The notes beneath the pieces are model-generated. The model saw only the letters and a program-made list of their open reading frames with translations. It made no database searches and was not told the origin of the DNA. Shown here in pieces: positions 38,441 through 54,346 of a DNA stretch of 54,522 nucleotides. Numbering within the stretch: the first letter of the stretch is position 1; every line of letters starts with the position of its first letter. The position numbers were made by a program, and so were the translations under genes. The stretch comes from Maribacter sp. (lineage in GTDB: Bacteria; Bacteroidota; Bacteroidia; Flavobacteriales; Flavobacteriaceae): positions 1 to 54,522 of the forward strand of contig NZ_JADGES010000007.1 in the NCBI RefSeq assembly GCF_016744255.1. Reading direction: 5' to 3'.

Positions 38441-39538
38441 ATGTCCTCTAATCTGCCTTTACGAAAAATAATTCATGTAGATATGGATGCCTTTTATGCA
38501 TCTGTAGAGGAATTAGACAACCCTAGCTTAAAAGGAAAACCTTTAGCTGTTGGTGGTAATGAAATAAGAGGTGTGGTTTCTGCTGCCAATTACGAAGCTC
38601 GGAAATTTGGTGTCCGTAGCGCTATGAGCGGGTTTATGGCCAAAAAAAACTGCCCACATATTACCTTTGTAAAACCCCGATATGACCGCTACAAAGAGAT
38701 TTCTAAAAAAATTAGAACTATCTTTTATGATTATACAGATTTGGTGGAACCTCTTTCTTTAGATGAAGCCTACCTAGACGTTACAACGAACAAAAAAGGA
38801 AACCCATCTGCTTCTTTAATTGCTAAAGAAATTAGACAACGAATTTTTGACGAACTTGGCTTGGCGGCTTCCGCAGGAATATCTATTAATAAATTTATAG
38901 CAAAAGTTGCCAGTGATATAAACAAACCCAATGGGCAAAAAACGGTAAACCCAGAAGAGGTTCTTTCTTTTTTAGAAAATCTTGAAATAAGAAAATTTTA
39001 TGGCGTAGGTAAAGTTACTACCCAAAAAATGTACAAACTAGGTATTTTTACAGGGAAAGACTTAAAAACCAAAACTTTAGAGTTTTTAGAAAATAATTTT
39101 GGTAAAGGTGGTTCTTACTATTATAATGTGGTTCGCGGAATTCATACCAGTGACGTTAAGCCACATAGAATTCCAAAGTCCTTAGGAGCCGAACGGACTT
39201 TTAACGAAAATTTAAGTAGCGAAATCTTTATGTTAGAACGCTTAGAAAACATTGCTGTTGAATTAGAAAAGCGCTTAAAAAAGTCTAAAATTGCAGGAAA
39301 AACAATTACCTTAAAAATAAAGTATAGCGACTTTACATTACAAACTCGTAGTAAAACACTACCCTATTTTATAGCCAATAACGATCTAATTTTAGAAAAT
39401 GCAAAGGAACTCTTATACCAAGAAAAACTGCAAAACTCTGTACGTTTATTAGGAATATCTTTAACCAACCTTAACACCGAGGTTAAAGAAAAACCCAAAG
39501 AAAAGAGCATCAATGTTCAATTACGATTTGATTTTTAA
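38441..39538 (+). CDS. dinB: DNA polymerase IV (Y family)
   Basis: A 365-residue translesion polymerase. I use the ATG at 38441 (MSSNLPLRKIIHVDMDAFY) rather than a TTG two codons upstream. The palm motifs IHVDMDAFYASVE and SLDEAYLD hold the three catalytic acids, AASAGISINKFIAKVASD is conserved, and the little-finger domain runs to about 350. The C-terminal LRFDF is in the position of the beta-clamp-binding peptide. A TACATTTG box at 38430-38437 is too near the start to be its promoter. Confidence 0.94.
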   Translation: MSSNLPLRKIIHVDMDAFYASVEELDNPSLKGKPLAVGGNEIRGVVSAANYEARKFGVRSAMSGFMAKKNCPHITFVKPRYDRYKEISKKIRTIFYDYTDLVEPLSLDEAYLDVTTNKKGNPSASLIAKEIRQRIFDELGLAASAGISINKFIAKVASDINKPNGQKTVNPEEVLSFLENLEIRKFYGVGKVTTQKMYKLGIFTGKDLKTKTLEFLENNFGKGGSYYYNVVRGIHTSDVKPHRIPKSLGAERTFNENLSSEIFMLERLENIAVELEKRLKKSKIAGKTITLKIKYSDFTLQTRSKTLPYFIANNDLILENAKELLYQEKLQNSVRLLGISLTNLNTEVKEKPKEKSINVQLRFDF

Positions 39539-39858
39539 GCAAAAGAAAACCCCAGTAATAATTTATTTTATTCATCGGGACTTTTTAAACACAAATACTT
39601 AACTACTACTTTACAATTAAAGCAGTATTGGTTGCTGTTGAGTTCATAGCGCAGAAATACACATATTCTCCTTTTTCTTTTTTATATGACAAGCTAAGTG
39701 CGTAAATTTTAGTGTTAATTAAAAGGATATAAAGGGTTTCTCAGCATCACAATAGAAATCATGATGGTGTTTTTGTTCGCAATGATTTTTAACTATAAGT
39801 TGTTCTTTAGCAAGTCTTGTAATAATCTTTATTGAACTTAAAATCTATTTTTAAAATA
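39539..39858 (-). other. gene-free stretch with short degenerate coding remnants
   Basis: There is no intact gene in these 320 bases. On the minus strand two stop-to-stop pieces look coding in composition. One covers about 39722-39846, ending EQKHHHDFYCDAEKPFISF, faintly like the metal-binding end of a Fur-family regulator. The other covers about 39606-39743, ending YVYFCAMNSTATNTALIVK. Neither has a plausible start. I read them as relics, with low confidence, adjoining a zone with two clearer pseudogenes. Confidence 0.3.
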
Positions 39859-40818
39859 TTATTCCTTTTTAAATTTATCATAGTAATAACTAGCTGCCGT
39901 TAAATCTTCCAAAGCATGCCCTACAGATTTAAAAAGCGTAATTTCTTTTTCAGAATTTCTACCTGTTTTTTGATTAGAACAGAGTTGAAATAAATCAGCC
40001 TTTATGTCTTCTTTTAATAACGTTCCATTTTCTAAAGGAATAACAATATCTCCACTTTCTTTTAACCCTCCTTGAAAAGTATCTAAAAAGACCGCTGCTT
40101 TTAAAATGGCTTCGTTATCTGCTTCTCGCATATTTTTTTTATAAGCTCCTACTAAATCTACATGTTGTCCTTCTTTTAAGAATTTGCCTAAAACTAAAGG
40201 AGTTATAGATAAAGTAGCACAAGAAATAATAGCAACCTCCGATATTTTTTCTTCAATAGATGCTATAGCTGTAATAGAAAAATTTTCATTTTCTAAATGC
40301 TTGCAAATAGCTTTTGCTTTGTCAAAATTTCGACCCCAAACAAATACATTTTTTATAGGACGGACAGCAATATGTGCTTTTATTAAATTTATAGCTAACG
40401 CCCCTGTACCAATCATTAATAAAGAATCTGAATTTTTTCTCGACAAGAAGGATGAAGCCAATGCAGAAGCTGCGGCTGTACGTTTAGCTGTTAAACTTTT
40501 TGCATCTAAAATAGCTCTAATAGTTCCTTTTGTAGCGTCTAAATAAATATAGACCCCGTTTATTGAAGGTAGGTTAAACTTACTATTTTCTGGGCTCACG
40601 GTTACTATTTTTACACCTGCATTTTTACTAGGGTTCCATGCAGGCATTAACAGTAAGGTAGAATCTGTGTTTACTTTCGGATTCGGAAAATCATGGTGAT
40701 GTCTCATAGGTACGATTGTTTCTTTAGCAGAAAAAGCCGTTTTTAATTCCGATATTAACTCAGAGAAAATCGTGTTTTCTTCAATGAAATTCTCGTTTAT
40801 TTGTTCAATTTTATCCAT
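39859..40818 (-). CDS. ornithine cyclodeaminase / mu-crystallin family protein
   Basis: A 319-residue NAD(P)-binding enzyme of the OCD family. MRHHHDFP at about 43-50 and the GVKIVTVSPEN stretch are in the substrate region. The Rossmann loop is MIGTGALA (about 137-144), and DAKSLTAKRTAAASALAS is the family signature. Relatives include ornithine cyclodeaminase, alanine dehydrogenase and delta1-pyrroline-2-carboxylate reductase. The nearby Xaa-Pro-type peptidase hints at proline or hydroxyproline metabolism (inference). It is divergent from the peptidase relic at 40936. Confidence 0.85.
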   Translation of the reverse strand: MDKIEQINENFIEENTIFSELISELKTAFSAKETIVPMRHHHDFPNPKVNTDSTLLLMPAWNPSKNAGVKIVTVSPENSKFNLPSINGVYIYLDATKGTIRAILDAKSLTAKRTAAASALASSFLSRKNSDSLLMIGTGALAINLIKAHIAVRPIKNVFVWGRNFDKAKAICKHLENENFSITAIASIEEKISEVAIISCATLSITPLVLGKFLKEGQHVDLVGAYKKNMREADNEAILKAAVFLDTFQGGLKESGDIVIPLENGTLLKEDIKADLFQLCSNQKTGRNSEKEITLFKSVGHALEDLTAASYYYDKFKKE

Positions 40819-40935
40819 GCCACTAAAGTAGTGTTTCTTTAAAAGTTAACTTCAGAATTATTCATATGATATTATGAATGGGTAATATTATATGAATATT
40901 CCCTTTTCATTAAAGTCTCTTTCAATAGAATTTAA

Positions 40936-41458
40936 ATCCTAAAAATCTTCTCAGAAGACATCTTTTACACATTCTTTAATTGGTTGTATTCTGATTATAA
41001 AAAAACACCTGTTTTTATAACAGGAGGTTATAATACGCGACCAAAAACGTATGAATTGAGCAATGGCAGAATACAGAATGCATGGTAAGTCATGATCAAA
41101 TTCTAATATTTAACGAACGACAATGCCATTCAAGGTTATCATAGGATACTCACAAAATTGAAAAAACGATATAAAGAAAAATAGATCTCAACAGGTATTA
41201 GTAAAGGAATAGAAACTACTTCTTAAAAGTGTGTTTTATCCAAAGAATATAAAAATAAATTGTAATAAAAATTACAGAAAATTAGTGTGTGATTATGTAG
41301 AAAATAAAAGGATATTATATATTCACGGAGAAAATAATTTTTGGACAGCTTGCGCGCATGCAGCAAAACCAGAAGTTGGCGCATTAAAAACGGTTCCCAC
41401 GGTAACACAAATCAAGTATTTTTCAAAAAAAAATCAACATAAAAAATATAGAAAATGA
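40936..41458 (+). pseudogene. degraded S37-family (PS-10) serine peptidase
   Basis: Reading through stops shows three stretches in the order expected for an S37 peptidase. At 40936-41084 is YKKTPVFITGGYNTRPKTYE, corresponding to the strand with the TEGY motif. At 41107-41223 in the same frame is KKRYKEK, a TAG at 41182-41184 where Trp is expected, then ISTGISKGIETT, the nucleophile motif (Ser at 41200-41202). At 41231-41458 in another frame is RILYIHGENNFWTACAH, then KYFSKKNQHKKYRK, the end of the domain with its acid-residue region. Stops also occur at 41085 and 41104. Intact members are over 400 residues, so large internal parts are missing. The last fragment overlaps the next gene's ATG. 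Confidence 0.75.
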
Positions 41459-42669
41459 CAGGAATTGGAGGCTCAACGATAGCAGAAGAATTACAAATAA
41501 TTACACCTAGCTTACATAATATACAACCTATTAAAAAAGAAGAATTTAAAAAAAGAATAGAACGAGTTAGTAAATTAATGAAAGTAAAAAAAGCACAAGC
41601 AGTTTATGTACATGCGGGTACAAATTTGTTTTATTTTACAGGAACTAAATGGAGTGCAAGCGAACGAATGGTTGGGGCGATTATATTTCCTAACGGAAAA
41701 GTGGCATATATAGCACCAACATTCGAAAAAGGAACTGTTTTAGATTTTATGCTTATAAAAGGAGACGTTCATTGTTGGGAAGAGCATGAGTCACCTTATG
41801 AGTTATTTATTAAAATTCTTAAAGAGAATAATGTAAAATCAGGAGAAGTAATGATTGATGAAGCTACTCCTTTTTTTATTACTGATGGAATAGCGAAAGT
41901 TCAATCTAGTTATATTTTAGTAAATGCTAAGCCAATTATTGCAGGCTGTAGAATGATAAAATCTAAAAATGAAATAGCCATTATGCAAGGGGTAATGGAT
42001 GTTACTTTAAAGGTGCAGAAAGCGGCAGCAAGAATTTTACATGTAGGTATAAGTGCTAAAGAAGTAACAGATTTTATAAACGAAGCACATAAAAGATATG
42101 GTGCTCCTTCGGGGTCTTATTTTTGTATTGTTTTATTTGGAGTAGATTCCTCATTCCCACACGGCGTAAAATCACCAAAGAATTTAGAGATGAATGAAAT
42201 GGTATTGATTGATACAGGTTGTATGTTTCACGATTACATGTCAGATATAACAAGAACATATGTTTTTGGAGAAGCAAATGAGTTGCAACGCGATATATGG
42301 AACATAGAAAAAGAAGCACAACAAGGAGCGTTTAAAGAAGCTCAATTAGGAAATTCCTGTGAAGATATTGATATCGCTTCAAGAAAAGTATTAGAATCTC
42401 ATAATTTAGGGCCAGATTATAAGTTGCCAGGATTGCCACATAGAGTAGGCCATGGAATAGGGTTAGAAATTCACGAGCACCCATACATTGTTAAAAATGA
42501 TAAAACTGTTTTACAACCAGGAATGACTTTTAGTGTAGAGCCTATGATTTGTGTCCCAAATAAGTTTGGTATTAGACACGAAGATCATATTTATATGACT
42601 TCAGAAGGCCCTAAATGGTTTACAGAGCCAATGTACTCTATTGATAATCCATTTGGCATAAAAATATAG
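41455..42669 (+). CDS. M24 family metallopeptidase (Xaa-Pro dipeptidase/aminopeptidase-like)
   Basis: A 404-residue pita-bread peptidase. It has an N-terminal creatinase-like domain (about 20-165) and a C-terminal catalytic domain. The five metal ligands are visible: Asp in LIDTGCMFHDY and DITRTY, His in VGHGIGLEIHEHP, Glu in SVEPMI, and Glu near FGIRHEDH. It removes or cleaves at X-Pro bonds in the cytoplasm. The ATG overlaps the end of the S37 peptidase relic, so its original upstream partner was probably that gene. A palindromic terminator follows. Confidence 0.9.
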   Translation: MTGIGGSTIAEELQIITPSLHNIQPIKKEEFKKRIERVSKLMKVKKAQAVYVHAGTNLFYFTGTKWSASERMVGAIIFPNGKVAYIAPTFEKGTVLDFMLIKGDVHCWEEHESPYELFIKILKENNVKSGEVMIDEATPFFITDGIAKVQSSYILVNAKPIIAGCRMIKSKNEIAIMQGVMDVTLKVQKAAARILHVGISAKEVTDFINEAHKRYGAPSGSYFCIVLFGVDSSFPHGVKSPKNLEMNEMVLIDTGCMFHDYMSDITRTYVFGEANELQRDIWNIEKEAQQGAFKEAQLGNSCEDIDIASRKVLESHNLGPDYKLPGLPHRVGHGIGLEIHEHPYIVKNDKTVLQPGMTFSVEPMICVPNKFGIRHEDHIYMTSEGPKWFTEPMYSIDNPFGIKI

Positions 42670-42720
42670 AGTTGCTAAAAGAAATACTATCTAGCACTGT
42701 CTCATAAAGTATGTAAAAAT

Positions 42721-42754
42721 ATAAAGCCCAAACATTATAATGTTTGGGCTTTAT
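42721..42754. terminator. perfect 34-bp palindrome, bidirectional terminator
   Basis: Bases 42721-42737 are exactly complementary to 42738-42754, with core AAGCCCAAACATTA / TAATGTTTGGGCTT. It lies between convergent units and also forms the last codons and stop of the cytochrome c relic on the minus strand. Confidence 0.75.
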
Positions 42755-43148
42755 ATTTAAGGTTTTGATTAAGCATAACAGCATTGTTATATTCCTTTAA
42801 AAGAGCCTTTGCAATAGGGTCTTCTTTTATCGTTCTGTCTGGGTTTAATATCATATTCATTACCCATTCTGGACTTCTTCTTTCATAAACACCTTTTAAT
42901 GCAGAGCCAATTAAACGTTTGTCTGTTAAATGACAAGCGGTACAAATAGCTTTATATTTTGCAGCACCGACTTCGGCCATATCTTTATCAATATCAGTCT
43001 CAAAATTTTAAAGATGTAATTGGGCCAACGCCTTTGTTATTTAGGTCTACAGGAACGGCTTCCTTTTCTGTTGAAAATTTTACTTCTTTTTTTCGCCACA
43101 GTTTACTATTAAAGCTCCGAGAGCTAAAATGGTGAATATTTTCTTCAT
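42735..43148 (-). pseudogene. frameshifted and truncated cytochrome c lipoprotein gene
   Basis: From ATG 43148 the frame encodes a lipoprotein signal (MKKIFTILALGALIVNCGE) and stops soon after a seven-A run (43087-43093). A one-base shift restores EVKFSTEKEAVPVDLNNKGV. A second shift at 43002-43009 (one extra base) restores ETDIDKDMAEVGAAKYKAICTACH without a gap. The heme motif CTACH is intact and followed by DKRLIG and EWVMNMILNP, typical flavobacterial small cytochromes. The C-terminal helix that should follow NQNL is missing and replaced by codons of the palindrome. The homopolymer shifts could be sequencing errors, but the truncation could not. Confidence 0.75.
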
Positions 43149-43192
43149 TTTTTATTTGAGTTTAATACTACTAAGATAAGAAATAGAAAATT

Positions 43193-44155
43193 TTAAAACA
43201 CCTCCTTTAAGAAGCTTGCAGCTCTTTTCTCGGTATATGTAATATTTTTTTTGCCATAGAATCCAACATGTCCTCCATATGTGGGCACTTCTAAATGTAA
43301 ATAGTCGTGGTTTTTGGCTATCTCTATAGGGAAACATTCTTCCCCTAGAAAGGAATCGTTTTTTGCATTTACAAGTAGTGTTGGGATGGTAATATTAGGT
43401 AAAAATTGCAGACAGCTACTTTTTTTGTAATAATCCAAGGCATTTGCAAACCCATGTGCTTTACTGGTATAAACATCATCAAAATCTAATAAAGTATGAA
43501 TGGTATTTATATCCTCATCTAAAATTTTGTTCGGAAACAACTTTTGTTTGGCTTCTAATTTCTCTATCAAATGTTTTTTAAACCTAGCTGCGTATAATGC
43601 ATTTTTAGGTTTTAATAATTGTTGTAAAGAATTATGTAAGTCGCAGGGTACTGAAATGGCAACAGCTCCTTTTATTTCTTTAGGTATATTGTTCTTTTTG
43701 CCTAGATATTTTAAAGCTATATTTCCTCCAAGGCTAAAACCTTTAATGTATATGTCAGGGTAATTCTTGGTCTCTAGAATATGATGTATAACGGCTTCTA
43801 AATCTTCTGTAGCCCCAGAATGATAAGAGCGATATAAAAGATTAGGTTCTCCGCTACACCCCCTTAAATTAATTGCACAAGCATCAAAACCTTGATTATT
43901 AAACTCTTTTACACTTCCAGTAATGTATACACGTTGCCCATTGCCTTCTAATCCATGGATTAAGAGTACTACTTTGGAGGAAGTTCTTTTAGAATAACTC
44001 CAATCTAAATCTAGAAAATCTCCATCAGAAAGTTTTATTCTTTCCCGTTTTTGAGATACATTTTTTATACTTCTGAAAATCCCATAATAAACAGTGGAGA
44101 AGTGACCATTTTTAAATAGAAGTGGCGGGTTATATTTAGAGGTAACTATAGGCAT
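43193..44155 (-). CDS. YheT-type alpha/beta hydrolase
   Basis: A 320-residue alpha/beta hydrolase. The strand VVLLIHGLEGN supplies the oxyanion region and GFSLGGNIALKYLG the nucleophile Ser (about residue 142). An Asp near LLVNAKNDSFL and His in YGGHVGFYG complete the triad. The C(A)INLRGCSGEPN motif is diagnostic of the YheT family, whose members act as carboxylesterases or lipases on unknown natural esters. It lies 2 bp downstream of the nitronate monooxygenase gene, so the two are cotranscribed. Confidence 0.9.
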   Translation of the reverse strand: MPIVTSKYNPPLLFKNGHFSTVYYGIFRSIKNVSQKRERIKLSDGDFLDLDWSYSKRTSSKVVLLIHGLEGNGQRVYITGSVKEFNNQGFDACAINLRGCSGEPNLLYRSYHSGATEDLEAVIHHILETKNYPDIYIKGFSLGGNIALKYLGKKNNIPKEIKGAVAISVPCDLHNSLQQLLKPKNALYAARFKKHLIEKLEAKQKLFPNKILDEDINTIHTLLDFDDVYTSKAHGFANALDYYKKSSCLQFLPNITIPTLLVNAKNDSFLGEECFPIEIAKNHDYLHLEVPTYGGHVGFYGKKNITYTEKRAASFLKEVF

Positions 44156-44157
44156 TT

Positions 44158-45132
44158 TTATTTAGGGTAAATTTCTAAATATTTTGTTTGTTCTTCGATA
44201 GCTGACTTAAATTCCGTTTTTAGGCTAGAAACCAATTCAGATACAGATGTAGTATTATCTATAGTAGCTACTCCTTGCCCAGCAGACCAAATAGTTTTCC
44301 AGGCTTTAGCTTCGGTATCCATTTCTTTGCCAAAATCAATTTTTGTATCCTTTTTTAGATCTTCTTCCGTAATACCTGCAGCTTGTAAACTAGCACCTAA
44401 AAAATTGGCATGTACTCCAGAGATAGAGGCAGTATAAACTACATCACTTGCCCCAGCATCAACAATCATTTTTCTATAGTCTTCCGTAGCTTTACTTTCA
44501 TTAGTATTAATAAAACGAGTGCCCATGTATGCTAAATCTGCTCCCATTTGTAAAGCAGAAGCGATATCTCTTCCTGTACTAATACATCCAGAAAGTAGTA
44601 TAGTTTTGTCAAAAAATTGTTTTATTTCTGAAACTAGAGTCATAGGGTTTATGGTTCCTCCATGGCCTCCAGCACCAGCAGCTACTAATATTAAACCATC
44701 TACACCAGCACCTGCTGCTTTTTTTGCATGTCGTTTTTTTATTACGTCATGAAAAACTAAGCCACCATAGCTATGAATAGCATCTACGACCTGAGAAACC
44801 GCTCCTAAAGAAGTTATTATTAGTGGAACTTTATGCTTTATACATAGTTTTATGTCTGCTTCTAGTCTTGGGTTGGTAGGGTGTACAATAAGATTAACAC
44901 CAAACGGAGCTGCTTTTTTGCCTGTTTCTTTTTCAAAAGCTGTTAAAGCTGTCTGTATTTCTATAAGCCATTCTTCAAAACCTTCACTTGTACGTTGGTT
45001 AAGAGCAGGAAAAGTGCCAACAATTCCGTTTTTACAGCATTCTATCACAAGTTGAGGTCCAGATATTAAGAACATAGGAGCAGCAACAGCAGGCAATGAA
45101 AGCTTATTTATAAAAGAAGGTTTATGAGTCAT
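44158..45132 (-). CDS. nitronate monooxygenase-family FMN protein
   Basis: A 324-residue TIM-barrel flavoprotein of the NPD/2-nitropropane dioxygenase family. VAAPMFLISGPQLV begins the barrel, VDGLILVAAGAGGHGG carries the FMN phosphate/His region, and GADLAYMGTRFINT is the conserved final phosphate-binding segment. Members oxidise propionate-3-nitronate or alkyl nitronates; some have other roles such as enoyl reduction. First gene of a two-gene unit with the YheT-like hydrolase. Confidence 0.9.
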   Translation of the reverse strand: MTHKPSFINKLSLPAVAAPMFLISGPQLVIECCKNGIVGTFPALNQRTSEGFEEWLIEIQTALTAFEKETGKKAAPFGVNLIVHPTNPRLEADIKLCIKHKVPLIITSLGAVSQVVDAIHSYGGLVFHDVIKKRHAKKAAGAGVDGLILVAAGAGGHGGTINPMTLVSEIKQFFDKTILLSGCISTGRDIASALQMGADLAYMGTRFINTNESKATEDYRKMIVDAGASDVVYTASISGVHANFLGASLQAAGITEEDLKKDTKIDFGKEMDTEAKAWKTIWSAGQGVATIDNTTSVSELVSSLKTEFKSAIEEQTKYLEIYPK

Positions 45133-45254
45133 AATATTAGGCTTTTAGAAGTGAAATAAAATTAAGTATAAAATTTATCGAAAAAAAATGCTCGTTTATC
45201 CAAAACTATGGTATTTTTATCAAGTATTATGCATGCATAGCAAAAAAATACCAA

Positions 45255-45731
45255 ATGTATTTAAAAGAATTTGAAATTCGATGGAGTGATTTAGACCCAA
45301 ATAGGCATTTAGCAAACTCTGCATACCTAAATTTTATGAGTCATACTCGTATGGCCTTTTTAATGGAATTAGGATTTACGCATAAAACTATGGAAGAAGA
45401 GAGTATTGGTCCTGTAGTTTTTTATGAGCATATATATTACTTTAAAGAAGCTTTTCCTGGTAGACCAGTGAAAGTATCTATGGAAGTGGTTGGTATGAGT
45501 GAAGATGGTAAATTTTTTGAATTTCACCATAATTTCTATGATTATAAAGGAAGAAACTTTGCGCACTGCGAGATGATGGGCGCATGGATGGATTTAAAAA
45601 CCAGAGTTCTAAGAGGTCTTTCGGAAGACTTTTTAAAAGCGTTTAATAATATTGAAAAGCCAGATAATTTTAGGGTTCTTACAAAAGAGCAGACAAGAAA
45701 GTTTGCAAAACTTCCTAAGGACTTGGTTTAG
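45255..45731 (+). CDS. acyl-CoA thioesterase (hotdog fold, 4HBT family)
   Basis: A 158-residue single hotdog domain. The N-terminal WSDLDPNRHLANSAYLNF carries the Asp and the conserved His-x-x-N pattern of the 4-hydroxybenzoyl-CoA thioesterase family. It hydrolyses acyl-CoA or acyl-ACP thioesters in the cytoplasm; chain specificity is not evident. Its last 17 bases overlap the 3' end of the convergent EamA gene. Confidence 0.88.
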   Translation: MYLKEFEIRWSDLDPNRHLANSAYLNFMSHTRMAFLMELGFTHKTMEEESIGPVVFYEHIYYFKEAFPGRPVKVSMEVVGMSEDGKFFEFHHNFYDYKGRNFAHCEMMGAWMDLKTRVLRGLSEDFLKAFNNIEKPDNFRVLTKEQTRKFAKLPKDLV

Positions 45732-46608
45732 GTTTTTTGGTAGTTAAGTACACGCCAAACATTATTAAGAGTGTCGCTATTATTTTTAATTCATTTAATT
45801 GATCTTTGCCTACTAATAATGCAAATAGAATACCAATAATAGGTTGTAAATAGACAAAGGAACTTAACGTAGATGCTTTTAATTTGGTTAGAGCATATAC
45901 ATTGAAGAGATAGGTAAAAAAAGTAGTAAAAACGATTACAAATAGTATGGAGCCAACAGCTTCAGTAGGGATTTCTTTCCACTGTATTTCTAAAAATTCG
46001 GGTAAAGTAATAGGGAAACAAATAATAAACCCAATAGAAAATAGCCATTTCATTAATGTAAAAGGATGGTATTTTTCGGTTAGTTTTTTTACCAAAATAA
46101 GATAAACCCCAAAGCTCACAGCATTTACTATAAAAAGTAGATTTCCTAATGGAATATTAGGAGCATCTTGGCTTGTCTTTGTTCCAAATAATATTAAGGT
46201 AACAGCACCAATAAAACCTAAAATAATACCAGTAACTTTTAAGAGAGTTATTTTTTCTTTGATTAGGATTGCAGATAGTATAACTACTAATATTGGTGTT
46301 ATAGTAATTAAAACAGCACTATTTATAGGAGTAGATAAAGCCAAACCTTTAAAAAAGGTGAGCATGTTAATTCCCATGCCTAAGATTGCACATAAAAGAA
46401 TTCTTCCCCAATCTTTTTTTTCAATACGTTCTTTAGGAGTAAAACAAGAAACACCCCAAAATAATAAAGAAGCACCTGCCAATCGTAGCATAATGAAACC
46501 ATAGGGTTTTATGTATGTTGGCATTACACCTTTAGCGATTGTATGGTTTATTCCGTAAATGGTTGCTGCACCAATAGCAGCTATTATGGCAAGAGTTCTC
46601 TGGTTCAA
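45715..46608 (-). CDS. EamA/DMT-superfamily transporter
   Basis: A 297-residue integral membrane protein with ten predicted TM helices in two five-helix EamA repeats (first around 5-140, second around 150-290, with LKASTLSSFVYLQPIIGILFA in the second). DMT carriers export or import metabolites such as amino acids or sugars; no substrate can be named. Its ATG overlaps the stop of the upstream ArsC-like gene by 4 bases. Confidence 0.9.
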   Translation of the reverse strand: MNQRTLAIIAAIGAATIYGINHTIAKGVMPTYIKPYGFIMLRLAGASLLFWGVSCFTPKERIEKKDWGRILLCAILGMGINMLTFFKGLALSTPINSAVLITITPILVVILSAILIKEKITLLKVTGIILGFIGAVTLILFGTKTSQDAPNIPLGNLLFIVNAVSFGVYLILVKKLTEKYHPFTLMKWLFSIGFIICFPITLPEFLEIQWKEIPTEAVGSILFVIVFTTFFTYLFNVYALTKLKASTLSSFVYLQPIIGILFALLVGKDQLNELKIIATLLIMFGVYLTTKKPKPSP

Positions 46609-46958
46609 GAATGAATATTTTGTTTAGCGTTTTCTACTACTTTTTTACTATTTCCTATAAATATTTGGTTATCATTTATTAAAACAGGCCTTTTAAGAAA
46701 GGTATACTGTTCTAAAATAAGTTCTTTATAATCGTTCTCGGTTAAAGTCTTTTCTTTTAAATTTCTTTCTTTATACAATCTTGCTCTTTTACTAAATAAC
46801 GCTTCGTAGGAACCAGAAAGAGTATACATTTCTGCAAGCTGTTCTGGGGTAATGTTTTCCGTTTTAATATCTTGAAAAAGAAAACCATCCATAGGTTTTA
46901 ATTCTTTAATTATTCTTTGGCAGGTATCGCAAGTGCTTAAGTGATATATTTTTTTCAT
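46605..46958 (-). CDS. ArsC/Spx-like thioredoxin-fold protein
   Basis: A 117-residue protein starting MKKIYHLSTCDTCQRIIKEL, with a CxxC redox motif at residues 10-13. The ArsC-family helix-rich insert and the late RPVLINDNQIFIGNS strand pair are present; this last contains the cis-Pro-like Arg-Pro of the fold. True arsenate reductases have other Arg residues and only one N-terminal Cys, so this is more probably a YffB/Spx-like redox protein. First in a coupled pair with the EamA transporter. Confidence 0.82.
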   Translation of the reverse strand: MKKIYHLSTCDTCQRIIKELKPMDGFLFQDIKTENITPEQLAEMYTLSGSYEALFSKRARLYKERNLKEKTLTENDYKELILEQYTFLKRPVLINDNQIFIGNSKKVVENAKQNIHS

Positions 46959-47028
46959 ATCGAAAATCTGTTAAGATATTTTAAGAGATATTTATTCGAC
47001 AAAGAAACTATAATAAAAGGTAATGTTC

Positions 47029-47036
47029 TATTTTTG
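47029..47036 (+). promoter_or_regulatory. possible -7 box upstream of DinB-like gene
   Basis: TATTTTTG matches TAnnTTTG, 43 bases before the ATG at 47079. No TTG -33 element is found at the usual spacing, so this is tentative. Confidence 0.25.
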
Positions 47037-47078
47037 ATATAGTAAAATATAATCCTTTTAACCAAAAAAATAATCTTT

Positions 47079-47543
47079 ATGGAAAAGCTTTTTGATATCA
47101 CCCTAAAGAATAGAAAAATCTTATATAGAATATTAGAAAATACACCTAAAGAGCAATTGGTTAAAATTCCGGCAGGTTTTAGGAATAGCATCTGGTGGAA
47201 TATAGCACATGTGGTAGTAACGCAACAGTTGTTAGTTTATAAGATGAGTAATTTGGAGATGAAAATGGAGGATGCCATTATTAATAAATTTAAAAAAGGA
47301 ACAGTGCCAGATGGGACTGCTACAGATGAGGAAATAGAATTAATGTCTGCCTTTTTGTTTTCTACTGCGGAGTGGGTAGAGGAGGATTATAATAATGGAA
47401 TTTTTAAAGAATTTAATGAATATACCACAACTCCGAAAATTACATTATCCAATGTAGAAGATGCTATAGCCTTTAATGTATTCCACGAGGGACTGCATTT
47501 AGGTGTTATTCTTTCTCTAGAAAAAGCATTGTTGGGTAGTTAG
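47079..47543 (+). CDS. DinB-family four-helix protein
   Basis: A 154-residue helical protein of the DinB/YfiT superfamily (not the polymerase). WWNIAHVVVTQQLLVY carries the first conserved His and AIAFNVFHEGLHLGVILSL the last two (FHEGLHLG), together forming the usual three-His metal site. Family members include thiol transferases acting with bacillithiol or mycothiol. Its last 4 bases overlap the end of the convergent DUF3298 lipoprotein gene. Confidence 0.88.
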   Translation: MEKLFDITLKNRKILYRILENTPKEQLVKIPAGFRNSIWWNIAHVVVTQQLLVYKMSNLEMKMEDAIINKFKKGTVPDGTATDEEIELMSAFLFSTAEWVEEDYNNGIFKEFNEYTTTPKITLSNVEDAIAFNVFHEGLHLGVILSLEKALLGS

Positions 47544-48283
47544 AGTTTTGGTTTTATAAACAGATATTTTTTTGCTTCGGGATAAGAAATAGTAAGGGAG
47601 ATAGAACCATCTGCATAAGAAGCTATTTCATATTGGTTATATAAGAGCTGCAACCCTTCTTTAGTGTAACCAATGTTTTCTGGTAGATTATAAGAATCCT
47701 CTTCAAACATAAATCCGGTGCTATTAATAGGGGCGTTTTGCGGAATATCTTCTTGAATTCTAAATTTAAGCTCGGCAAATTTATTAAAGTCGAAATCTGG
47801 ATTAAAAAGCTCCCAATTCTCTAGTTCAACTCCTTTTTTCTTATTAAAATTTAAAAATCTAGAGGAAGAATAACCATGTGCGCCACCTGTAAATAAGTAA
47901 GAGTTAAGCGTAATAGAAATTACATTTTTGTCTTCATAAGAAATTTCTCCGGTAATAGATGCTTCCCACTTAGTAGATTCTTCAGGGAATTTTTTCATAA
48001 GGTCCGAATATCCATTTTTAAAAGAAGATATCGCCGTTTCTATAGTATTTATTTCTACAGATTCATCAAAATTAAGTAACGTAATAATTTCTTCGCGTAT
48101 AGCTGTGTTTATGGTTTTATCTATTTTGGAATCTTCCAAAGCTTTAGGAATGCTAATTTTTACAATGGGGCAAGTGTCGCATTCTACTTCTTCAATTACA
48201 ATAGGTTCAAAGGATAATAGAGATTCATTTTTACAACTAATAGTAATTGTTAAAAAAAGAAATGCGATATAAAGAGGTTTCAT
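47540..48283 (-). CDS. DUF4163/DUF3298 (RsiV-like) lipoprotein
   Basis: I choose the ATG at 48283, giving a 247-residue protein that begins MKPLYIAFLFLTITISC, a proper lipoprotein signal with Cys at 17. A start 33 bases upstream would put charged residues before it. The C-terminal two thirds match DUF4163 then DUF3298, with LNSYLFTGGAHGYSSSRFLNF as the clear landmark. This fold occurs in the sigma-factor regulator RsiV, where it binds lysozyme, but here there is no anti-sigma part or sigma factor gene nearby, so no such role is claimed. Confidence 0.87.
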   Translation of the reverse strand: MKPLYIAFLFLTITISCKNESLLSFEPIVIEEVECDTCPIVKISIPKALEDSKIDKTINTAIREEIITLLNFDESVEINTIETAISSFKNGYSDLMKKFPEESTKWEASITGEISYEDKNVISITLNSYLFTGGAHGYSSSRFLNFNKKKGVELENWELFNPDFDFNKFAELKFRIQEDIPQNAPINSTGFMFEEDSYNLPENIGYTKEGLQLLYNQYEIASYADGSISLTISYPEAKKYLFIKPKL

Positions 48284-48403
48284 AAATAAGGGGTAATTAT
48301 TTTTTTGATAGTACAAAAATACACCTTCATTATTATCCTCAAAGAGAATAGTGTAAATTTAAAAGGTGTAAAACTTAAAATATTTGGAAGCAAAATTAAT
48401 TTT

Positions 48404-49558
48404 ATGGGCAAAGAAGGTTTAAAATTTAATAGTAGAACAATACATGGAGGGCAAGAGCTAGAAAAAGGGTATGGAGCAGTTATGCCTCCAATTTATCAGA
48501 CCTCTACATTTGCGCAAGTGGCCCCAGGGGAACATAAAGGTTATGTTTACGCTAGGAGTGCAAACCCAACACGTACCGCTTTGGAAAACTCTTTAGCAAG
48601 TATTGAAAACGGAAAATATGGTTTAGCTTTTGCGAGCGGTCTTGCGGCTATTGATGCCATAATGAAATTGTTTAATCCAGGGGATGAAATTCTATCTAAT
48701 TATGATTTATATGGAGGTGCTTTTAGGTTGTTTAAGCATATTTTTGAGAAGTACGGATTAGTTTTTTGTTTTATAGATATGCAAGATGCGAGGTCTATTG
48801 AAAATCATATTACAAAGAATACCAAACTTATATGGATGGAAACCCCAACCAATCCTATGCTAAATATATTAGATATTAAAGCCATAACTAAGATTGCTAA
48901 GGAGCATAAACTATTAGTCGCTGTAGATAATACTTTTGCATCACCATATTTGCAAACCCCTTTAGATTTAGGGGCAGATATAGTGATGCATTCTGCAACT
49001 AAGTATTTAGGCGGTCATAGCGATACCGTAGTTGGGGGTATTGTGGTTAAAGATAAAGGGTTGGCAGATAAGCTATATTTTATCCAAAATACCAGTGGAG
49101 CAATTTGCGGACCTATGGATAGTTTTTTGGTTCTTAGAGGTATTAAAACGTTGCATGTAAGAATGCAACGGCATTGCGAAAATGGAAAAGCAATAGCGTT
49201 ATTTCTTAAACAACATGACCAAGTAGAAGAGGTATATTGGCCTGGTCTTACAGATCATCCTAATCATGAAATAGCTAAAAACCAGATGAAAGATTTTGGG
49301 GCAATGTTATCTTTTGTGCCTAAGGGAGGAAATTATAATAAGGCTATAGAAATTATAAAAAAGCTATCTCTTTTTACATTAGCAGAATCCCTTGGTGGTG
49401 TAGAGAGTTTGGTAGGGCACCCAGCAAGTATGTCTCATGGAAGTATACCCAAAAAAGAGCGTGAAAAAATAGGAATTAAAGATGCATTAATAAGGATTAG
49501 TGTAGGGATAGAAGATGTGCAAGATTTAATAACGGATTTAGAGAATGCTTTAAGCTAA
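48404..49558 (+). CDS. Cys/Met metabolism PLP enzyme (cystathionine gamma-synthase/lyase type)
   Basis: The start is placed at ATG 48404, giving 384 residues beginning MGKEGLKFNSRTIHGGQ; the longer frame adds 33 residues that do not belong to the family. The PLP-binding Lys is K200 in SATKYLGGHSD. YARSANPTR, the aromatic Y and R contacts, and VAVDNTFASPYLQTP with the cofactor Asp are all in place. Cystathionine gamma-synthase and gamma-lyase cannot be separated by eye; the short sequence between them and the lack of met genes nearby give no further help. Confidence 0.9.
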   Translation: MGKEGLKFNSRTIHGGQELEKGYGAVMPPIYQTSTFAQVAPGEHKGYVYARSANPTRTALENSLASIENGKYGLAFASGLAAIDAIMKLFNPGDEILSNYDLYGGAFRLFKHIFEKYGLVFCFIDMQDARSIENHITKNTKLIWMETPTNPMLNILDIKAITKIAKEHKLLVAVDNTFASPYLQTPLDLGADIVMHSATKYLGGHSDTVVGGIVVKDKGLADKLYFIQNTSGAICGPMDSFLVLRGIKTLHVRMQRHCENGKAIALFLKQHDQVEEVYWPGLTDHPNHEIAKNQMKDFGAMLSFVPKGGNYNKAIEIIKKLSLFTLAESLGGVESLVGHPASMSHGSIPKKEREKIGIKDALIRISVGIEDVQDLITDLENALS

Positions 49559-49679
49559 TTTGTAAAGGTTTAATGGAATCCTAGTTTTTATAAAGGATTG
49601 TTATAAAAAGAGTAAATAATACTACCTCATAAAATATAGGAAACATCTAGCTTTATTAGTTTTTCGATAATTTAATGGA

Positions 49680-49730
49680 AAAATATAACGATATAATTAT
49701 AGTAATGTCATAATTTCGTCGTTATATTTT
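49680..49730. promoter_or_regulatory. dyad upstream of glutamate dehydrogenase gene
   Basis: AAAATATAACGA (49680-49691) is exactly complementary to TCGTTATATTTT (49719-49730), with a 27-base spacer. The downstream arm ends 37 bp before the gdhA start, which is promoter distance. It may be an operator with two half-sites or a leader structure. Confidence 0.4.
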
Positions 49731-49767
49731 CAAATTGTCAATATTAATAAGATATTAAATTAGCTTT

Positions 49768-51111
49768 ATGGAAGCAAAAATTAAAGATTTTATGGATGAG
49801 GTTACGGCTAGAAACGGCCACGAACCTGAGTTTATCCAAGCAGTACAAGAGGTAGCAGAAACTGTTATACCATATATTGCTAAAAATGAGATATATAATG
49901 GTAAAAACATTCTTTTAAGAATGGTAGAACCAGAACGATTAATTTCGTTCAGAGTTGCTTGGGTAGATGACAAAGGAGAGATACATGTAAATAGAGGATA
50001 CCGTATACAAATGAATTCCGCAATAGGGCCGTATAAAGGTGGTTTGCGTTTTCATCCTTCTGTAAATGCAAGTATCTTAAAATTCTTAGCTTTTGAGCAA
50101 GTATTTAAAAATAGTTTAACAACATTACCTATGGGTGGTGGTAAAGGAGGTTCCGATTTTGACCCTAAAGGAAAATCTGATGATGAGGTAATGCGTTTTT
50201 GCCATGCCTTTATGTTAGAGTTAAACAGACATATTGGTCCTAATACAGATGTTCCTGCTGGTGATATTGGTGTTGGTGCAAGAGAAATAGGTTTCCTTTT
50301 TGGAATGTACAAGAGAATAAGAAATGAATTTACAGGTGTTTTAACGGGAAAAGGACTTTCTTGGGGAGGTTCTAAAATACGTCCTGAAGCTACTGGTTAT
50401 GGTACAGTATATTTTGCACAAAGTATGCTTAAAACTAATGGACAAGATATTGATGGAAAAACAGTGGTTATTTCTGGATCTGGTAATGTTGCGCAATTTG
50501 CTGCCGAAAAAGTAATTCAATTGGGAGGTAAAGTAGTTACTCTATCAGATTCTGCAGGGTATATTCATGATAAAGATGGTATTGACGCTGAGAAACTGGC
50601 CTTTGTTATGGATTTAAAGAATAATAAAAGAGCTCGTATTTCGGAATACACTAAAAAGTATAGTTCCGCAACATACCATGCAGGAGAAAAACCGTGGAAT
50701 GTTTCTTGTGATATTGCTTTGCCATGTGCAACGCAAAACGAATTAAATGCAGAGCAAGCAAAACAGTTAATAGCTAATGGTTGCCTTTGCGTTGCGGAAG
50801 GAGCAAATATGCCTTCTACAGCAGATGCTATTCATGCATTCCATGATGCTAAAATACTTTTTGCTCCAGGAAAAGCTTCTAATGCAGGTGGTGTTGCAAC
50901 CTCTGGTTTAGAAATGTCTCAGAATTCACTTAGAATTAGCTGGACAAGAGAAGAGGTGGACCAAAGATTAAAAGGTATTATGGAAGAAATTCATAATTCT
51001 TGTATCGAATTTGGTAAGGAGAAAGATGGGTATTGCAACTATGTAAAAGGAGCAAATATCGCTGGTTTTGTTAAAGTAGCAGATGCTATGTTAGCACAGG
51101 GTGTTATTTAA
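49768..51111 (+). CDS. gdhA: NADP-type glutamate dehydrogenase
   Basis: A 447-residue hexameric glutamate dehydrogenase that joins ammonium and 2-oxoglutarate. The catalytic region holds GPYKGGLRFHPSVN and the PMGGGKGGSDFDPKG motif with the catalytic Lys. The PAGDIGVGAREIG stretch, the Rossmann motif GSGNVAQ and ASNAGGVATSGLEMSQN at the end are all of the GdhA class. The Ser/Asp after the second strand (TLSDSAG) favours NADP. The gene is monocistronic with a strong terminator and a dyad upstream, compatible with nitrogen control. Confidence 0.95.
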   Translation: MEAKIKDFMDEVTARNGHEPEFIQAVQEVAETVIPYIAKNEIYNGKNILLRMVEPERLISFRVAWVDDKGEIHVNRGYRIQMNSAIGPYKGGLRFHPSVNASILKFLAFEQVFKNSLTTLPMGGGKGGSDFDPKGKSDDEVMRFCHAFMLELNRHIGPNTDVPAGDIGVGAREIGFLFGMYKRIRNEFTGVLTGKGLSWGGSKIRPEATGYGTVYFAQSMLKTNGQDIDGKTVVISGSGNVAQFAAEKVIQLGGKVVTLSDSAGYIHDKDGIDAEKLAFVMDLKNNKRARISEYTKKYSSATYHAGEKPWNVSCDIALPCATQNELNAEQAKQLIANGCLCVAEGANMPSTADAIHAFHDAKILFAPGKASNAGGVATSGLEMSQNSLRISWTREEVDQRLKGIMEEIHNSCIEFGKEKDGYCNYVKGANIAGFVKVADAMLAQGVI

Positions 51112-51133
51112 TTGCATTTTAGTAGATGATAAT

Positions 51134-51165
51134 AAAAGGCTTTCTAGTTTCTAGAAGGCCTTTTT
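51134..51165 (+). terminator. rho-independent terminator after gdhA
   Basis: 14-bp arms AAAAGGCTTTCTAG (51134-51147) and CTAGAAGGCCTTTT (51151-51164; one G-T pair) around a TTT loop, ending in a T run. Confidence 0.88.
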
Positions 51166-51205
51166 GTTTTATTACAATTACCTTTGAGAAGATTTAAGAG
51201 TATAC

Positions 51206-51925
51206 ATGCAGGTAACAACCAAAGCCATAGTTTTATCTTCGTTAAAATATGGAGATACAAGTTTAATCGTCAAAGCATTCACGGCTTCAGACGGTCTTAA
51301 ATCGTATCTACTAAAAGGGGTTTTAGCATCTAAAAAAGGGAAATTGAAAACGGCTTATTTTCAACCTTTAATGCAACTAGAAATAGTTGCTAATCATAAA
51401 AACAAGGGTACTTTAGAAAGTATAAGAGAGGCGAAAGTAAATTACCATTATCAAACTCTTCATTCGCAAATAGCAAAAAATGCGATGACCCTTTTTTTAG
51501 CCGAAATGTTAGGTAACAGCATTCATGAAGAAGAATGTAATGAAGACCTTTTTTTGTATCTAGAAACGGCATTACAATGGTTAGATACTAATGATAAAAT
51601 TGCTAATTTTCATCTCTATTTTTTATTGCATTTAACCAAGTATTTAGGGGTGTATCCAGATACGACAAATAGCCATGCGAGCTATTTCGATTTGCTAGAA
51701 GGGGAGTTTATAAACAGGCCTTCTTTAAACCCCAACTTGCAAAATGAAAATTTATCTAATTTTAAAACCTTATTGGGCATAAATTTTGATGCATTACATT
51801 CTATTACCCTAAATAAGGCAGGTAGACAAGAGTTGTTAAAGTCGCTTATTCTGTATTTTGAATTACATTTGCAAGGATTTAGAAAACCCAAATCGTTAGA
51901 GGTCTTAAATGAAGTTTTTAGTTAG
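51206..51925 (+). CDS. recO: DNA repair protein RecO
   Basis: A 239-residue RecO. The N-terminal OB fold starts VTTKAIVLSSLKYGDTSLIVKAFT and the YLLKGVLASKKGKLK loop is conserved; the C-terminal part is helical. The zinc-binding cysteines found in many RecO proteins are absent, as is common in Bacteroidota. RecO loads RecA with RecR at gaps. A TACCTTTG box at 51179-51186 could be a -7 element. The TonB receptor start follows one base after the stop. Confidence 0.92.
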   Translation: MQVTTKAIVLSSLKYGDTSLIVKAFTASDGLKSYLLKGVLASKKGKLKTAYFQPLMQLEIVANHKNKGTLESIREAKVNYHYQTLHSQIAKNAMTLFLAEMLGNSIHEEECNEDLFLYLETALQWLDTNDKIANFHLYFLLHLTKYLGVYPDTTNSHASYFDLLEGEFINRPSLNPNLQNENLSNFKTLLGINFDALHSITLNKAGRQELLKSLILYFELHLQGFRKPKSLEVLNEVFS

Positions 51926-51926
51926 T

Positions 51927-54338
51927 ATGAAAAATATAGGTTGCCTAATACTATTCTTTCTTTTTAATCTTATTTCTGCTCAAGAAATTAGGGTGGTAGA
52001 TGGTATCACTAATGAGCCCATTGTTAATGTGGCAGTATATAATGGAAACAAAACAAAAACTACTATTACAGATTTTAATGGGTATTGTAATCTTGAGAAA
52101 TTTAGTTCTAATGAGCGTATAATTTTTAAGCATATTAGTTACGAAATTTATAAGAATACTAAGGCGCAAATTTTACGGCATAACCGTAAAATTTCTATGG
52201 TTTTAAAACCCAATGAATTAGATGAAGTTGTTATGTCTATTTCTAAATGGGAACAGCAGAAAAAAGATATTCCTAATAAAATAGCTTCTATTGACGCTAA
52301 AAGTATTGCTTTTGCAACACCACAAACGGCTGCAGATGTTTTACAAAAAAGCGGAAAAATATTTGTACAAAAAAGCCAATTAGGTGGTGGTAGCCCTATG
52401 ATTAGAGGCTTTGCAACAAATAGATTATTACTTTCTGTAGATGGTGTTCGTATGAACAACGCTATTTTTAGAGGAGGTAATGTACAAAATGTTATATCTG
52501 TAGACCCTTTTACCATACAAAACACAGAAATTATATTTGGACCTGGTTCCGTAATCTATGGTAGTGATGCTATTGGTGGGGTAATGAATTTTTATACTAA
52601 AAAGCCAGTCCTTTCTAATACCGATAGTTTGGTTGTTTCTGGGAATGCAAATTATCGTTTTGCAACTGTCAATATGGAAAATACCATACATGCAGATATT
52701 AACCTAGGAAAGAAGAAATGGGGATTATTAACAAGTGTTTCTTATAATGATTTTCAAGATTTGCAAATGGGTAATTCTGGTCCAGATTCTTATTTAAGGA
52801 ATTCCTACGTAGAAAGAGTTGATAATCAAGATGTATTAGTATCCAATAATAATCCTAAAAAGCAAGTTACCAGTGGTTATAGTCAGATAAACATCATGCA
52901 GAAAGTGCTGTTTAAGCCTAATCGTAATTGGGATTTAAATTTGGGAACCTATTATTCAGAAACTTCCGATTATTCCAGATATGATCGTTTAATTAGGCCC
53001 TCGAGTGACGGTGCTGGTCTGCGTTATGGAGATTGGTATTATGGACCACAAAAATGGTTCATGGCTAATATGCAATTGCATAAAAAAGGGAATGGAAAGT
53101 TTTACGATGGATTAAAGATTACAACAGCGTATCAATATTTTGAAGAAAGTAGAAATAACAGAAATTTCGGAGATACTAATTTGTATTCTACTAAAGAAAA
53201 AGTAGACGCGTTATCTACAAACTTAGATTTTGAAAATAAAAAAATTGGAAATTTACGTTTGTATTACGGAGCCGAATTTATCTTTAACAAAGTGTATTCA
53301 AACGGAATAGGAACGAATATAGGGACTAGAGAAACAGAGATAGTGGCTTCAAGATACCCAGATAATTCTAGTTGGAAAACAGTAGCAGGGTATATTAATG
53401 GGGAATATAAAGCAAAACCAAATTTTACTTTTTTATCAGGGTTACGATATAGCCATGTGTGGATAAATGCCATTTTTGACAAAAGATTTTATCCTTTTCC
53501 ATTTGATAATGCAAATTTAAGTACAGGAGCTCTAACTGGTAGCTTAGGATTAAGTTGGTTTCCGAAGAAAGATCTACAGGTTACTTTTAATGGTTCTACA
53601 GGTTTTAGATCCCCAAATATAGATGATGTAGGTAAAATTTTCGATTCAGAACCAGGGTCGGTAGTAGTCCCGAACCCAGATTTAGAACCAGAATACGCTT
53701 ATAATGTAGAATTAGGAATTCATAAAAATATTAAAGATAAATTAGTTTTAAAAGGAGCTGCATTTTATACCTATTTAGTAGATGCATTGGTGCGTAGAGA
53801 TTTTGAGTTTAATGGAGAATCGGAGATTCTGTATAATGGAGAGTTAAGCAATGTACAGGCCATGCAGAATGCTGCAAAAGCATATGTTTATGGTTTTGAA
53901 TTTGGGTTAGATGCCGCTTTGACAGATAATTTTTCTCTCTCTGGTAATTTAACAATTACAGAGGGTATTGAGGAAGAGGAAGATGGCACAGATACGCCAG
54001 CAAGGCATGTTTCCCCAATGTTTGGAGATTTTCACTTAGTATGGAAAAATCAAAAATTAAAAACAGATTTGTTTGTTAATTATAATGGAGAAATTGAGTA
54101 TAGTGATTTAGCAACCTCAGAGAGAAGTAAGGAATATATTTATGCTGCGGATGCGGATGGTAATCCATATTCCCCGTCTTGGTATACTCTTAATTTTCGT
54201 TCCCAGTATGCGGTTTCTTCTGCATTGAAGATGACCGCGAGTTTAGAAAATATAACCAACCAGCGATACCGAACCTATTCTTCGGGGATTGTTTCTCCAG
54301 GAATAAACCTTATTTTAGGTGTTGCATATCAATTTTAA
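51927..54338 (+). CDS. TonB-dependent outer-membrane receptor, heme/hemoglobin type
   Basis: The start is set at ATG 51927, one base after recO, giving 803 residues with a clean signal peptide (MKNIGCLILFFLFNLISAQ). Then comes a carboxypeptidase-regulatory-like domain (about 20-95), the plug (GGGSPMIRGFATNRLLLSVD, GVRMNNAIFRGGNVQNV, GPGSVIYGSDAIGGVM), and a 22-strand barrel. The C-terminus is LGVAYQF with the terminal Phe needed for outer-membrane insertion. The plug is of the heme/hemoglobin-receptor kind, but no heme ligand or uptake genes are visible, so the substrate is inferred. The cluster with recO is chance or weak coupling. Confidence 0.88.
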   Translation: MKNIGCLILFFLFNLISAQEIRVVDGITNEPIVNVAVYNGNKTKTTITDFNGYCNLEKFSSNERIIFKHISYEIYKNTKAQILRHNRKISMVLKPNELDEVVMSISKWEQQKKDIPNKIASIDAKSIAFATPQTAADVLQKSGKIFVQKSQLGGGSPMIRGFATNRLLLSVDGVRMNNAIFRGGNVQNVISVDPFTIQNTEIIFGPGSVIYGSDAIGGVMNFYTKKPVLSNTDSLVVSGNANYRFATVNMENTIHADINLGKKKWGLLTSVSYNDFQDLQMGNSGPDSYLRNSYVERVDNQDVLVSNNNPKKQVTSGYSQINIMQKVLFKPNRNWDLNLGTYYSETSDYSRYDRLIRPSSDGAGLRYGDWYYGPQKWFMANMQLHKKGNGKFYDGLKITTAYQYFEESRNNRNFGDTNLYSTKEKVDALSTNLDFENKKIGNLRLYYGAEFIFNKVYSNGIGTNIGTRETEIVASRYPDNSSWKTVAGYINGEYKAKPNFTFLSGLRYSHVWINAIFDKRFYPFPFDNANLSTGALTGSLGLSWFPKKDLQVTFNGSTGFRSPNIDDVGKIFDSEPGSVVVPNPDLEPEYAYNVELGIHKNIKDKLVLKGAAFYTYLVDALVRRDFEFNGESEILYNGELSNVQAMQNAAKAYVYGFEFGLDAALTDNFSLSGNLTITEGIEEEEDGTDTPARHVSPMFGDFHLVWKNQKLKTDLFVNYNGEIEYSDLATSERSKEYIYAADADGNPYSPSWYTLNFRSQYAVSSALKMTASLENITNQRYRTYSSGIVSPGINLILGVAYQF

Positions 54339-54346
54339 AAGAATAA

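Follow-up and report, generated by a model that had tools for sequence, protein, structure and literature searches.

Peptidases of family S37 are SC-clan alpha/beta hydrolases and, according to passages of two papers, post-proline-cleaving enzymes (PMC11878206, PMC9147577). The family corresponds to PF05576 (PS-10) and includes the prolyl tri/tetrapeptidyl aminopeptidase of Streptomyces mobaraensis. When the intact S37 protein L089 was searched against the PDB, lysosomal Pro-X carboxypeptidase was the sole match (E 0.0012). A literature search for pseudogenes of S37 peptidases found no paper. Gene neighbourhoods of dehydratase-reductase pairs, with peptidase families mentioned among them, are described in part of PMC4113996.

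A stretch of 54,522 nucleotides of Maribacter sp. DNA, here called the window, contains at approximately 40969-41450 on the plus strand what is well supported, from its sequence, as a pseudogene of a family S37 peptidase. Its likeness to the described family lies in homologous pieces in the right order and in the GISKG motif. It differs in that it would no longer be a gene: some 55-60% of the protein is either absent or no longer in a common frame. The features of the locus are as follows.

39859-40818, minus strand: Delta1-pyrroline-2-carboxylate reductase gene (ornithine cyclodeaminase superfamily; PF02423, E 6.5e-56), open and divergent
40819-40968, no strand: region between the divergent genes, presumed to be the promoter site
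40969-41061, plus strand: S37 relic piece 1, first frame, L089 residues about 73-106 (frame-aware alignment and tblastn)
41063-41092, plus strand: S37 relic piece 2, second frame, L089 residues 115-124, with the EYRxxGKS motif
41095-41217, plus strand: S37 relic piece 3, first frame, L089 residues 129-169, with the nucleophile motif
41218-41233, plus strand: junction of the large central loss, about 160 residues of an intact S37 protein gone
41234-41449, plus strand: S37 relic piece 4, second frame, L089 residues about 342-419
41231-41458, plus strand: GTG open reading frame of 75 aa, consisting of piece 4 and overlapping the M24 start by 4 bases
41455-42669, plus strand: M24 family metallopeptidase gene (Creatinase_N and Peptidase_M24; PF00557, E 9e-53), open, co-directional and downstream

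The reductase scores 376.7 against a cut-off of 322 for NF004793 (Delta1-pyrroline-2-carboxylate/Delta1-piperideine-2-carboxylate reductase). The M24 protein has no NCBIfam equivalog above cut-off.

Similarity to intact S37 peptidases

The window was searched by tblastn with 31 open S37 proteins of 429-444 aa from the same bacterial family. The best first block, 40969-41262, was obtained with query L073 (74.3 bits, E 1e-16) and the best second block, 41198-41461, with query L092 (68.6 bits, E 7e-15). Elsewhere in the window the same queries score no more than 27.7 bits, and 500 dinucleotide shuffles of the relic region yield 28.5 bits at most. The S37 identity proposed by the first-pass annotation is thus real and far above chance, and this search, equivalent to the translated search that the annotation had suggested, aligns S37 proteins over the fragments in order. 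Summed scores against the relic are at least 118 bits for 14 of the 31 queries and at most 58 bits for the other 17, so the relic belongs to one S37 clade.

The profile PF05576 is the top Pfam family both on the one-frame stretch of the relic (E 0.0011, 18.3 bits) and on the joined pieces of the first-pass annotation (E 7.7e-5, 22 bits), both below the curated cut-off of 27. Descent from family S37 is supported by the significant similarity found with tblastn, though the PF05576 score reaches 22 of 27 bits, and by the G-I-S-K-G nucleophile motif, which had been reported as ISTGISKG and is found in the three-frame translation at 41185-41208 in piece 3. Matches of relic pieces to ACP_PD, DUF3913 and HP0268 are all below their own cut-offs and weaker than S37 over the whole, and no unrelated family provides a better fit.

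To map the pieces, the region was aligned, with frameshifts allowed, to a profile built from 14 relatives; residues are numbered as in L089. Upstream of piece 1, about 72 N-terminal residues are missing. The relic had been described as three pieces in order in two frames. The order and the alternating frames hold, while the number rises to at least four with the addition of 41063-41092 (piece 2), which reads AEYRMHGKS where the intact protein of locus L165 reads VEYRMYGKS. The start given at 40936 does not stand, since convincing homology begins only at 40963/40969; earlier starts, 40909-40968 from the aligner and 40936-40968 from the first-pass annotation, were dropped for unconvincing homology.

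Decay of the coding sequence

Two stop codons lie within the aligned pieces, a TAA at 41104 and a TAG at 41182, both in piece 3. Another first-frame TAA, at 41086, is located where the alignment uses the second frame for piece 2. The TAG (41182-41184) was said to replace the Trp before ISTGISKG, and this is borne out by 23 of 24 clade S37 proteins, which have Trp at the site; the remaining one has Tyr. In piece 4, an Asn is encoded at 41336-41338 where all 14 relatives have Asp in the GxxDxW block. We take this Asp to have a catalytic role, as in the SC clan. A working S37 peptidase would have the conserved Asp and one open frame of about 430-440 codons, in place of which the relic has Asn, two alternating frames and stops.

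Divergence was compared with that of 21 of the 24 clade S37 proteins, leaving out L171, L173 and L176. Over the 154 covered codons the intact copies have a mean identity to one another of 73%, with a minimum of 60%, and the relic has a mean identity to them of 54%, with a maximum of 57%. It keeps 42 of the 57 residues that are invariant in the 21 intact copies and has lost 15, whereas each of the 21 intact copies, when held out, differs at 0-3 of the 57-60 columns on which the other 20 all agree. The stretch shows lesions that block a full product (stops, alternating frames and two extensive losses) and loosened constraint at residues kept by functional copies (15/57 against 0-3), and relatives have intact counterparts at the same place (L165, and the 12 of 35 regions with the divergent pair, both described below). 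The best-supported reading of the sequence is that the stretch does nothing as a protein and that no S37 product is to be expected. Such a pseudogene is ordinary genome erosion and of low surprise.

Other accounts of the broken frame were considered. Joining of the pieces by recoding, through frameshifting or stop read-through, into a working protein is barely conceivable: nothing was found in its favour, most of the fold between the nucleophile and the Asp block is gone, the invariant Asp is changed, and a search of 39500-43300 against Rfam gave no family at its gathering score. An error of sequencing or assembly in a working gene might be thought of in a draft genome of 181 contigs, yet a few base errors cannot explain the loss of about 160 and about 72 residues, several stops and the loss of 15 of 57 invariant residues, and we regard this as highly improbable. 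It is also very unlikely that the 75-aa GTG frame is a genuine small gene whose translation goes along with that of M24. In favour, the frame is open and shares the bases ATGA with the M24 start, an arrangement known from coupled genes. Against this, it corresponds to the last ~80 residues of S37, with neither the nucleophile nor the invariant Asp, it starts at the deletion junction, and its only Pfam match is DUF3913, under cut-off. The warning in the first-pass annotation that the final piece is a GTG-initiated frame open to mis-annotation was sound: this frame is the S37 C-terminal piece and should not be annotated as a gene.

Gene order in relatives

PF05576 matched 36 of 299 genomes of the bacterial family, 35 of them above cut-off, and gene order was counted in these 35 S37-selected regions, with G104 (E 9.2e-4, under cut-off; region L105) left out. 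A homologue of the window's reductase, divergent from the S37 gene and immediately upstream of it with 186-411 bp between the alignment ends, is present in 12 of the 35, and in all 12 of these a gene of the proline racemase superfamily is next. In 4 more of the 35 regions the reductase is near the S37 gene in another arrangement. A thirteenth divergent pair, L067 (genome G038), was fetched for its reductase and is outside the 35. At L087 (G191) the S37 gene is followed by M24 at 18 bp, and there is no reductase in the fetched stretch.

A second set comes from an M24 scan of named genomes (alignment A1 of 8), from which the best 80 of 332 loci were taken with flanks of up to 6 kb, shorter at some loci, and with only the best S37 match per locus considered. 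The genomes of the two sets are partly shared; for example, the M24 and reductase of L140 are identical to those of L084. Within the fetched flanks, 20 of these best 80 loci have an S37 match, which is near full length except at L157, where the locus ends, and 12 of the 20 have the divergent reductase and S37 pair. The exact order of the window, with the reductase on the minus strand and S37 and M24 on the plus strand, occurs in 1 of the best 80 of 332 loci, L165, from uncultured Tenacibaculum sp. isolate 654-n.

The S37 gene of L165 is intact, encoding 441 aa with the nucleophile motif ISSGISKG. It has the same place, orientations and reductase and M24 neighbours as the relic, which matches its protein in two blocks at 73.2 and 66.2 bits (49% and 45% identity); relic DNA at 41059-41226 is 69.7% identical to the L165 S37 gene (E 8.5e-18). 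L165 differs in its open S37 frame and in a dehydratase-like gene upstream of its reductase that is absent from the window. The comparison of syntenic regions that the first-pass annotation had proposed therefore gives open S37 genes beside the same neighbours in related Flavobacteriaceae, once in identical order. In the tree, the window M24 has closer neighbours than the M24 of L165, and L165 is therefore a match in position rather than a near relation of the island as a whole.

Trees of 88 M24 rows and 44 reductase rows show no clear common donor of the two genes. In the 44-row tree the reductase joins three Tenacibaculum loci with weak support (87/87, not starred); the M24 shows no such grouping. 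The end branches of the window genes are long, 0.45 against a median of 0.13 for M24 in the 88-row tree and 0.30 against 0.14 for the reductase in the 44-row tree, and could stem from relaxed constraint or from rapid evolution following transfer.

The resemblance to the dehydratase-reductase neighbourhoods described in part of PMC4113996 is in the relatives, where the reductase is paired with a proline-racemase-superfamily gene. The window is unlike them in that the sole PF05544 match in its assembly is on another contig, C134, and is a 4-hydroxyproline epimerase above the NCBIfam cut-off. No relic of a dehydratase-like gene was found in the window with 17 protein queries (top score 25.4 bits, at 52890), and PF05544 has no match in any of 7 sister species. 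An apparent 4-hydroxyproline catabolic cluster, read by eye, is present in the same genome at G000:C134:5528-13479 (L138). Besides the epimerase, its frames were labelled by eye as oxidase-, aldehyde dehydrogenase-, DapA- and AraC-like.

Sister species and the origin of the relic

At E 0.001 the profile PF05576 has no match in the 7 sister species or in the window's own genome, where the relic itself is also not reported. The 14 control genomes searched alongside the own genome and the genus are likewise without a match. These searches exclude an intact S37 gene rather than a relic, and do so only in view of the 36 of 299 family genomes in which the same model has a match. A search with 17 S37 proteins gave no match at E 1e-6 in 14 flank stretches taken from the 7 sister genomes. 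The window's reductase has no match in the 7 sisters, and a close M24 orthologue is absent from them, with distant paralogues only (best E 5e-13).

Window positions 1-39544 and 42756-54339 match one contig of sister G003 in opposite orientations, and in all 7 sisters the flanking genes, DinB and a hydrolase, share a strand and are separated by 41-62 kb. This places the island (39544-42756) at a rearrangement junction. DinB identity is 84-94% within the genus, and no more than 78% in 19 genomes searched through named loci. The simpler reading is that the island was gained by this lineage rather than lost in the sisters.

Several other features were observed near the junction. A second broken gene, at 42756-43148 on the minus strand, has stops and gaps and resembles a small haem-binding (CxxCH) lipoprotein (cytochrome c). 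It is 71% identical to an open copy in sister stretch L122, and the gene is open in all four sister stretches compared (L122, L124, L127 and L130). A near-perfect palindrome, AAAGCCCAAACATTATAATGTTTGGGCTTT, at 42719-42758 may serve as a terminator or as a site of recombination, and a similar palindrome lies downstream of DinB in G003 (L123 9192-9242). Window 39719-39839 has short matches to DNA downstream of DinB in sisters; at that place L123, L125 and L131 carry three genes, two for small proteins and one for a regulator-like protein, which are absent there in the window. Elsewhere in the own genome, a second, broken reductase fragment (G000:C174:1615-1908, L065) has 48% identity over 98 aa with 3 stops and adjoins frames at L065 683-1438, which are presumably transposase-like.

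The stretch is very probably the relic of the S37 gene of a peptide/hydroxyproline cluster, which would have been gained by the lineage and have decayed in place between open neighbours. The ancestral gene would have encoded a secreted or lipoprotein-type S37 (PS-10) peptidase, judging by eye from the N-termini of its relatives, within a small catabolic cluster of a reductase, usually a trans-3-hydroxyproline-dehydratase-like gene, and S37 and M24 peptidases. Since the sister species are without the cluster, it would have entered this lineage, where the dehydratase-like gene was presumably lost or never arrived and the S37 gene would have decayed through deletions, frameshifts and substitutions. 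That it was instead already broken on arrival, or was broken by rearrangement rather than by slow decay, is rather unlikely. The island is at a rearrangement junction, the neighbouring cytochrome c gene is broken too, and the large S37 losses could be quick events, but the many substitutions scattered over invariant positions point to a prolonged absence of selection.

After gain and decay in place, the relic would remain as spacer DNA, perhaps transcribed, between 40819-40968 and the M24 start at 41455, and it may persist as the transcribed leader of M24. In 39500-43300 there are 14 promoter-like sites, compared with 18.6 in shuffles, and 3 terminator-like sites, compared with 2.1 (not above chance). 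Promoter-like matches are found at 40846, 40904 and 40964, in a stretch not enriched relative to shuffles. Because such sites are not above the shuffle rate, a promoter is not claimed.

Recognition of the relic guards against two errors of annotation: calling a spurious 75-aa gene, and assuming that the species possesses an S37 peptidase at this site. It is also a record of a case in which one gene of a proline/hydroxyproline peptide cluster is dying while its neighbours are still open. Tentatively, the flavobacteria may have a recurrent module, rearranged freely, whose secreted S37 peptidase and M24 peptidase supply proline/hydroxyproline peptides to a dehydratase-reductase pair, and in which the reductase and S37 genes share a divergent start region; the window would then be a collapsing copy, with the S37 remnant surviving in the transcript to M24. 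That reductase, dehydratase-like, S37 and M24 genes recur in varied orders across the Flavobacteriaceae could guide enzyme assays.
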